NCBI RefSeq assembly: GCF_030378205.1
Contig: NZ_CP127385.1
Location: 2,148,001-2,212,000 of the forward strand
Length of the DNA: 64,000 nucleotides
Reading direction: 5' to 3'
From: Bradyrhizobium sp. NP1
Lineage (GTDB): Bacteria; Pseudomonadota; Alphaproteobacteria; Rhizobiales; Xanthobacteraceae
The translations under genes and the position numbers were made by a program. This document shows positions 4,216 to 54,345 of the stretch, piece after piece. The notes under the pieces are model-generated. The model saw nothing but the letters and a program-made list of their open reading frames with translations, searched no databases and was not told where the DNA came from. Numbering within the stretch: the first letter of the stretch is position 1; every line of letters begins with the position of its first letter.

Positions 4216-4280
4216 GCGTGCCGAGTTCGGGTTCGAATACCGACTCGGTCGTCATTGCGAGGAACGACGGCGACGAAGTT

Positions 4281-4413
4281 CGTGGGGTGGGCAAAGCCAA
4301 CGGGTCCGCGCGAAGCGCGGCCCGATGACAGGCTTTGCCCACCATTCAACTCTTCAACTGTCGTCAAAAAGAAAGGTGGGCATGGCGCGAGATGCGCCTT
4401 TGCCCACCCCACG
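4281..4413. repeat. 133-bp palindromic repeat with 16-bp perfect terminal inverted repeats
   Basis: The ends CGTGGGGTGGGCAAAG (4281-4296) and CTTTGCCCACCCCACG (4398-4413) are exact reverse complements. A second inner inverted pair (TGCCCACC / GGTGGGCA) is nested inside. It lies between the convergent RidA and GST genes. A hairpin CCACGA-TTTT-TCGTGG at 4408-4423 may help terminate transcription. A shorter relative occurs at 11836-11924. No reading frame is seen inside. Confidence 0.8.
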
Positions 4414-4435
4414 ATTTTTCGTGGTGCCGCGACGG

Positions 4436-7197: not shown

Positions 7198-7363
7198 CTA
7201 GTGTCCCGAATCCGAAGTTCGCAACATTGCACCGCATCCTCTTTCGCGAATTTCGGATTCGTAAGGACACTAGAAACCCATGATTCTAGTGTGGTTTTGG
7301 TTCAGAAGTTCTCTTGACGGGCTCGCTGCAACAATGAAGAGAACTTCTGAACCACCACACTGG
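7198..7363. repeat. Tandem pair of palindromic units (CTAGTG family, pair A)
   Basis: Unit A1 (7198-7273, 76 bp) runs from CTAGTGTCC to GGACACTAG, with an inner stem CGAATCCGAAgTTCGC / GCGAAtTTCGGATTCG. Unit A2 (7286-7363, 78 bp) runs from CTAGTGTGG to CCACACTGG, with the inner stem GGTTCAGAAGTTCTCTT and its complement. Twelve bases separate the units. The right edge is 24 bp before the start of the zinc peptidase. The same architecture recurs at 42214 and 54178. Confidence 0.85.
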
Positions 7364-11835: not shown

Positions 11836-11924
11836 GTAGGGTGGGCAAAGCGAAGCGTGCCCACCATCAAATGTTTCACTTCGATAAGGGTGGGCACGTC
11901 GCTACGCTCCTTTGCCCACCCTAC
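11836..11924. repeat. 89-bp palindromic repeat with 15-bp terminal inverted repeats
   Basis: GTAGGGTGGGCAAAG (11836-11850) and CTTTGCCCACCCTAC (11910-11924) are perfect complements, and GTGCCCACC / GGTGGGCAC are nested inside. Shorter relative of the element at 4281-4413. It is 20 bp from the stop of the MarR-GNAT gene and could form a strong terminator-like hairpin. Confidence 0.8.
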
Positions 11925-24584: not shown

Positions 24585-24690
24585 AGTGCGGCGCAACACG
24601 GCAAGCGGTTGACATTCGCCACCTGGCGTCCCGGTTCTGACATTCGTATCACGTTGCGAGCTCAGCTACGAATGTCAAACCCACCGCACT
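24585..24690. repeat. Degenerate single unit of the CTAGTG palindrome family (D)
   Basis: Outer arms AGTGCGG (24585-24591) and CCGCACT (24684-24690) enclose GGTTcTGACATTCGTA and its complement TACGAATGTCAAACC. A second left-type arm, GGTTGACATTCG, lies further out, as if one arm were duplicated. Located between ispB and the divergent DUF2007 gene. Confidence 0.6.
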
Positions 24691-24709
24691 GATGCGAAGG
24701 AGAACACGA

Positions 24710-34899: not shown

Positions 34900-34978
34900 G
34901 TCATTCCGGGATGCGCCGTCAGGCGCAGACCCGGAATCTCGAGGTTCCGGGTTGGCGCTTCGCGCGCCCCGGAATGAC
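34900..34978. repeat. GTCATTCCGGG...CCCGGAATGAC palindromic repeat, second copy
   Basis: 79-bp element with the same 11-bp perfect inverted ends as the copy at 8329, and inner complementary text around CCCGGAATCTCGAGGTTCCGGG. Located directly after ppdK, so it may shape the 3' end of that transcript. Confidence 0.7.
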
Positions 34979-42213: not shown

Positions 42214-42383
42214 CCAGTGGAGTGGATTTGACATTCGCCGCTCATCCAGCCGCGCATTCGGAAAGCGAATGTCAAATCCAAAACTCCACTGGAATCCAAT
42301 ATTTTGCTAGGCGTCCTTTGACGCCAACATTCGCAAACGAGCCCGCTACAAAAGGGATGCGAATGTTGGCGTCGGACCACTAG
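42214..42383. repeat. Tandem pair of palindromic units (CTAGTG family, pair B)
   Basis: Unit B1 (42214-42292, 79 bp): CCAGTGGAGTGGATTTGACA... to ...AATCCaaaACTCCACTGG, inner stem GGATTTGACATTCGC. Unit B2 (42307-42383, 77 bp): CTAGGCGTCC to GGACCACTAG, inner stem GACGCCAACATTCGCA and complement. A 14-base gap separates the units. The right edge is 17 bp before the acuI-like start codon and leaves only the ribosome-binding site between. Confidence 0.85.
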
Positions 42384-54177: not shown

Positions 54178-54345
54178 CTAGTGGTCCAATTCTAACATTC
54201 GCTCCCCACGTGGGGAGGCGCGTTTGCGAATGTTAGAATTTAAAGGACCACTAGCAGATTATTGATGCTAGTGGAGCTTTGGATTTGACGTTCGCATGAG
54301 GGAATCGCGGCAAATGGGCTGCGAACGTCAAATCCGCTCCACTAG
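54178..54345. repeat. Tandem pair of palindromic units (CTAGTG family, pair C)
   Basis: Unit C1 (54178-54254, 77 bp): CTAGTGGTCC to GGACCACTAG with inner stem AATTCTAACATTCGC and complement. Unit C2 (54268-54345, 78 bp): CTAGTGGAGC to GCTCCACTAG with inner stem GGATTTGACGTTCGCA. A 13-base gap separates them. Best-preserved ends of the family in this window. Confidence 0.9.

Follow-up and report, generated by a model that had tools for sequence, protein, structure and literature searches.

The paired palindromes of Bradyrhizobium sp. NP1 very probably belong to a family of nonautonomous, MITE-like mobile elements of about 165 bp that inserted at CTAG, each a doublet made up of a class 1 hairpin, a linker of about 13 bp, and a class 2 hairpin. 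The palindromes came to light in a 64,000-nucleotide stretch of the genome (the window). The earlier note on the window had suggested either a mobile miniature element with compensatory change or a structured RNA or DNA regulator. The first suggestion is supported by empty sites, near-identical scattered copies, a CTAG target, and covariation in the stems. The second was not supported for the family as a whole, although a single copy, located between two flagellar genes and preserved in several species, behaves like a conserved functional structure.

Paired palindromes in the window

Each unit is an imperfect palindrome of 76 to 79 bp, and the mobile element consists of two such units placed head to head (Table 1).

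Table 1. Units and linkers of the three doublets in the window
Feature	Positions	Strand	Remarks
Doublet 1, class 1 unit	7198..7273	+	Outer TCC; bulge TAA on the 3' side of the unit
Doublet 1, linker	7274..7285	.	12 bp
Doublet 1, class 2 unit	7286..7363	-	Outer TGGT; bulge AAA; opposite in orientation to its partner; end sequence CACTGG
Doublet 2, class 2 unit	42214..42292	+	GAGT; CTAG replaced by outer CCAG and inner CTGG, which pair with each other (compensated change)
Doublet 2, linker	42293..42306	.	14 bp
Doublet 2, class 1 unit	42307..42383	-	GTCC; plus-strand start CTAGGC (decayed)
Doublet 3, class 1 unit	54178..54254	+	GTCC
Doublet 3, linker	54255..54267	.	13 bp
Doublet 3, class 2 unit	54268..54345	-	GAGC

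The pairs that the earlier note had placed at 7198, 42214, and 54178, with spacers of 12, 14, and 13 bp, were borne out by the coordinates. Its description of the ends as CTAGTG...CACTAG or a one-base variant was accurate except at the decayed start of the unit at 42307 to 42383. The exact pattern CTAGTGN{50,80}CACTAG occurred three times in the window and never in 100 shuffles. A covariance model trained on 33 chosen units, which include three of the six in the window, recovered all six, with 64 to 84 bits on the best strand and 26 to 49 bits on the opposite strand. A weak seventh match at 24627 to 24694 (23 bits; E, 6e-4) is perhaps a decayed unit. The three pairs lie 25, 18, and 44 bp from a gene start, in agreement with the claim that each pair sits within 50 bp of one, but only 14 of 50 elements in a wider sample do so; these distances, like the gene contexts given below, rest on a crude in-house ORF caller.

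Architecture of the unit and the doublet

Read in its own orientation, a unit is composed of an outer arm of about 10 bp that begins with CTAGTG, an inner stem of 15 bp, a loop (about 22 to 27 nt in most units), the complementary inner arm, a bulge, and the complementary outer arm. The loop-side half of the inner stem resembles GAAGTTCGC or GACRTTCGC. The bulge, mostly of 3 nt and often AAA, is on the inner side of each unit and is missing in a few. The bases that follow CTAGTG define two classes of unit: GTCC, TCCC, or CCC in class 1 and GAGC or GAGT, TGGC or TGGT, or CCGC in class 2.

An 864-kb sample of the NP1 genome, picked mostly around known units so that the unit densities in it are too high, contained 100 units, and a contiguous stretch of 340 kb contained 6. 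We defined a doublet as two neighboring convergent units, and 82 of the 100 sampled units formed 41 doublets. Among the 49 neighboring pairs separated by no more than 60 bp, the remaining arrangements were back to back with one common CTAG (6 pairs) and same-way (2 pairs, with a gap of 13). The spacing within the doublets, which by the earlier note had to be nonrandom, is nearly fixed: the gap is 13 bp in 29 of them, 12 bp in 7, 14 bp in 3, and 15 bp in 2. The resulting linker of 12 to 15 bp is A/T rich and resembles CAAATTTATGATT. A class 1 unit is partnered with a class 2 unit in 40 of the 41 doublets, the other being scored class 2/class 2 by a simple rule. In 39 of these 41 doublets the two outer arms have the same base after CTAGTG, compared with a mean of 19.4 and a maximum of 29 after shuffling.

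Scans of genome and viral contigs provided 125 further loci, 16 of which contained no unit according to the scan. There were 90 convergent pairs with gaps of 11 to 18 bp (13 bp in 50 of them), 8 overlaps by 4, and 3 same-way pairs. In one convergent pair (L353:3832-4097) the gap is 114 bp instead of about 13 bp, at another locus (L192:4129-5065, in genome G343) two doublets lie 610 bp apart, and genome G178 has a subfamily with the arm CTAGTGTCCCGAGTCACAAGTTCGC in five copies at five places.

Abundance and distribution

The exact pattern matched 157 times in the NP1 genome (7,712,921 bp), including a few chimeric matches such as 925958 to 926043, so the family is far from being confined to the few copies known from the window. 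A reversed control pattern matched 62 times, a number probably explained by GATC being more frequent than CTAG. The covariance model (E ≤ 1e-4) matched 177 of the 265 genomes scanned in the genus, NP1 included, and 87 of 149 genomes drawn from the family, representing 33 of 47 genera; the genus scan scored no more than 18 candidates in each genome and the family scan no more than 32, and both strands of one unit can count among them. Copy numbers differ strongly between relatives. G343 had 146 matches at E ≤ 1e-9 among 150 scored candidates.

An exact-arm scan of public genome contigs yielded at least 118 stretches, with doublets also in Caulobacter ginsengisoli, in Hyphomicrobium, and in MAGs labeled Phenylobacterium, Magnetospira, and Parvularculaceae. 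Seven stretches of viral contigs matched, six of them with units. Two records of a plasmid collection were returned by one of three queries, and a single query sequence returned no record from a phage collection.

Mobility and probable insertion at CTAG

Genome G010 carries seven near-identical doublets (14 units) in unrelated sequence contexts, and their outer arms are alike over about 20 bp. The earlier note had proposed comparing orthologous intergenic regions, and this comparison revealed empty sites with CTAG for one of the G010 doublets (L063). Of the corresponding loci of 13 congeners, 5 align across the joint and 8 do not. Three of the five empty sites (G124, G178, and G260) read ACGTT[A/G]GCA-CTAG-TA. 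CTAG is present in G153 too, where the flank has changed, and G198 has CTAA. A single CTAG in four of the five alignable congeners thus corresponds to CTAG...CTAG with the doublet, a net gain of 161 bp. Because CTAG is a palindrome, three histories look alike: duplication of CTAG, duplication of the TA within it, and insertion on its 3' side with nothing duplicated. A weaker interrupted site was found at L039:4554, where a doublet interrupts a dispersed repeat. Ten uninterrupted copies of that repeat were compared. CTAG stands at the corresponding place in 2 and CTGG in 3, and the rest differ; both copies with CTAG (L058 and L136) are from other genomes, and no NP1 copy has it.

Of the 82 sampled units in doublets, 64 had CTAG as the outermost tetranucleotide of both sides, 5 had a different tetranucleotide that matched between the sides, and 13 were unmatched. 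The possibility that the inner tetranucleotide serves as a target guide was considered and rejected, with too few units (the 5 of 82 with matched non-CTAG tetranucleotides) in its support. CTAG is rare. The 864-kb sample has 225 occurrences outside elements, whereas its base composition would predict about 2,784. The stop codon of a neighboring gene lies within the outer tetranucleotide in 16 of 51 NP1 elements (15 CTAG and one CTAA), and about the same share of free nongenic CTAG sites, 56 of 190, serve as stop codons. None of 50 placed NP1 elements was inside a called gene. Their gene contexts were tandem in 28 cases, divergent in 12, and convergent in 10.

Covariation in the stems

Covariation, the compensatory change that the earlier note had suspected, was strong. 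In the alignment of 33 units, double changes were present in 20 of 25 base pairs, and 98.4% of 825 cells were paired. Shuffling lowered this share to 77.2%, and sliding left no more than 38.8%. The share of paired cells is flattered because the 33 units were hand-picked as well formed, and the cells are not independent events because the units are related copies. The covariation was almost wholly Watson-Crick, with GU in only 7 of 812 paired cells. Since GU pairs are nearly absent, both DNA strands seem to be constrained alike. In two orthologous doublets (L107 and L111), two pairs had changed on both sides and one change was uncompensated.

A conserved doublet between fliQ and fliR

A doublet located between fliQ and the start of fliR, genes that were named by reading ORFs, was found in at least 14 of the 265 genomes as a match over the whole query. 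G248 has a diverged doublet there, and G089 has another in matching context (L122). The ends are mostly GTCG/CGAC and CGAA/TTCG rather than CTAG, and the sequence at the insertion place varies among 16 empty sites.

Across the 14 genomes, diversity was 0.014 and 0.019 in the inner stems, 0.060 and 0.093 in the outer stems, 0.345 and 0.146 in the loops, 0.158 in the linker, and 0.155 in the bulges. The corresponding values for the first, second, and third codon positions of fliR were 0.043, 0.015, and 0.206, and the inner stems are as conserved as the second positions. Of 700 cells, 99.4% were paired. Double changes occurred in 4 pairs, giving 10 compensatory cells, and 4 of 500 shuffles reached 4 pairs. 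GU accounted for 21 of 696 paired cells, above the level in the family at large. Genome G212 has only four model matches, which are two units on both strands, and copying from sister elements is therefore an unlikely cause there. The fliQ-fliR doublet has probably been co-opted by the host.

Alternative explanations

The conservation at fliQ-fliR raises the question of whether the palindromes are mainly functional structures, such as regulators or sites of mRNA processing or termination, for which mobility is secondary. The low diversity of the inner stems relative to the loops and third codon positions, the compensatory cells, and the GU pairs at this locus all favor such a function, as does an RNA fold z score of -10.5 for doublet 3. 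We nevertheless consider it improbable for the family as a whole, as GU pairs are nearly absent among the 33 units, gene context is varied, copy numbers are strongly different between relatives, and no Rfam family was found in the window. A purely RNA-level function was rejected. It is also unlikely that the stems are kept paired by quasi-palindrome correction through template switching rather than by selection. Correction would be expected to give double changes almost without GU intermediates, as observed, but it preserves pairing and not sequence, whereas the fliQ-fliR inner stems keep their sequence while the loops are at least 10-fold more diverged. Furthermore, the one-sided change that distinguishes L111 from L107 has gone uncorrected.

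A different set of alternatives concerns the enzyme. REPINs occur as inverted hairpin pairs, in tandem arrays, and in lineage bursts, and the CTAG doublets share these traits. They might accordingly be REP/REPIN doublets moved by a RAYT (a Y1 HUH transposase) via single-stranded hairpins, and the NP1 genome does have two Y1_Tnp genes. However, both are beside a GTAG-tagged repeat (GTAGGGTGGGCAAAG...), and a scan of 20 kb around each found no CTAG unit near one gene and a single doublet, some 5 kb distant, near the other. In addition, no Y1_Tnp (E ≤ 1e-3) was found in 13 of 20 chosen element-bearing genomes, among them G010, G155, G343, and G398, which are in one or two contigs. RAYTs were rejected as the mobilizer on these grounds, and movement of the doublets by them is very improbable. 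The repeat that adjoins both Y1_Tnp genes is also present in the window as GTAG-tagged REP pairs at 4280 to 4414 and 11836 to 11924 (GTAGGGTGGGCAAAG/CTTTGCCCACCCTAC). We likewise give little credence to movement in trans by a DUF4096 transposase of the IS5 family (IS427-like), which also uses CTAG. Its appeal comes from locus L025 (6596-7861), where the inner CTAG of a doublet is the exact position of an IS5-like remnant with a DUF1993-looking ORF, both named by eye. The remnant has CTAG on both sides, and a left-end-like motif, CTAG-GGCGYGGACTC, is present at two of eight other distinct DUF4096 loci inspected. However, the ends of the remnant (GCCGT..ACTCATAA) are unlike those of the doublet. 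DUF4096 had no match in G343, which is very rich in elements, and one partial match in G398; as a general mobilizer it was rejected on the strength of G343.

Proposed mechanism and its implications

The search turned up no mobilizing gene. No gene-enclosing (autonomous) copy was found among 20 loci from 20 genomes, one of which (L120) has a single unit according to the model and a partner that looks truncated. None was found in G010, where 14 outer-arm matches all fell within the 7 doublets, and none was recognized among the 125 loci of the genome and viral contig scans. Genes separate two units in a single case (L025), which reads as a later IS5-like insertion. A nonautonomous doublet would be moved by a transposase acting in trans, for which the similar outer arms (CTAGTGN plus about 18 bp) would be the terminal inverted repeats. 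A bulge of 3 nt, confined to the inner arms, may mark those arms as not for cutting, and the complementary inner copy of each outer arm would let the ends fold as DNA hairpins, so that sequence would drift mainly by paired change. If this reading is correct, there is about an even chance that the enzyme is of the DDE type and duplicates its CTAG target, which is our first guess. We would also guess that two single-hairpin MITEs came to move as one composite and that the linker is what became of the space between them. Single copies would be open to co-option by the host, as at fliQ-fliR.

Some points stand against parts of this model. A plain MITE needs no palindrome inside each end, and the fliQ-fliR doublet has ends other than CTAG and variable empty sites. 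It is possible, although doubtful, that the doublets represent a separate non-RAYT system in which an enzyme recognizes paired DNA hairpins bulged on one side and inserts them at CTAG, perhaps by a logic common with RIME1/CIR, with one copy now a conserved structure in a flagellar operon. This possibility is weakened by the CIR-like repeat, which has clear CTAG ends in only some of eight copies, and by the enrichment of GANTC in the doublet units.

With these results an abundant alphaproteobacterial repeat gains a defined unit, polarity, and target, and the expected mobilizer, RAYT, is argued against in most of the element-bearing genomes tested. The fliQ-fliR doublet stands out clearly as a co-option candidate. 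Transposition might be caught in the lineages of G010, with its near-identical copies, and G328, which has many equal-scoring copies. There is also a testable route to CIR mobility, as some CIR look-alike copies found here also end in CTAG.

Relation to known repeat families

The earlier note knew of no named family with this architecture. No description of the exact paired-hairpin CTAG arrangement was found in the open-licence literature, but the plan of two arms plus a linker is known from CIR (PMC2229807). The portions of PMC2245857, PMC2680597, and PMC2267715 that were available contain nothing on the CTAG doublet. REPIN/BIME elements resemble the doublets in their inverted hairpin pairs, arrays, and subfamilies with complementary stem changes. 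They differ in that REPs are 20 to 40 bp with GTAG or CGTC tags, as stated in excerpts of PMC3733652, whereas the doublet units have CTAG and 76 to 79 bp and showed no RAYT association in the 20 genomes or around the two NP1 Y1_Tnp genes. Br-REP1 and Br-REP2, like the doublets, are intergenic palindromes of Bradyrhizobium, but they have other, shorter consensus sequences, and the CTAG doublet is not described in the accessible text of PMC5082802. The inverted repeat at 34900 to 34978 of the window (GTCATTCCGGG.../...CCCCGGAATGAC) is like the end of the Br-REP2 consensus given there.

Closer in kind are the MITEs RUP and NEMIS/Correia, which have about 100 to 200 bp, terminal inverted repeats, and a short duplicated target (PMC2229807, in part). 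The doublets similarly are short (about 165 bp) and putatively noncoding, with matching outer arms and with CTAG at both ends versus one CTAG in most alignable empty sites. They differ from these MITEs in that each end is a full palindrome, giving two hairpins, and in that no related autonomous element was identified in G010 or the loci examined.

The NP1 genome and its relatives also carry a two-armed repeat of about 105 to 110 bp that has GATTC in its loop and that we take to be RIME1/CIR from its fit to the description of CIR. Judged by eye, it appears to be a separate family with sequences unrelated to those of the CTAG doublets. Among eight full-length copies (L058:1664-1778, L046:2167-2272, and six others), the left end is CTAG in one and TTAG, ATAG, or a poorer variant in the rest, whereas three have a clear CTAG at the right end; an insertion logic in common with the doublets is possible. 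One CTAG doublet lies inside a repeat of this kind, and another is directly adjacent to one, with a CTAG in common. In the part of PMC2229807 available, CIR elements are intergenic repeats of alphaproteobacteria with two palindromic arms, a linker, and TA termini, a length of about 110 bp, and GANTC at or in the terminal loop; the two-arm plan with a linker also appears in the available text of PMC10969869. The CTAG doublets share the two arms, the linker, and the TA termini with CIR/RIME1 (Bru-RS), but at about 165 bp they are longer, and their GANTC is mostly in stems, with 55 occurrences in class 1 stems and 15 in class 2 loops. It is missing from 54 of the 100 units. GANTC is nevertheless 2.4-fold enriched in the units (72 versus 29.9 after letter shuffling), so that some kinship with CIR elements is conceivable.
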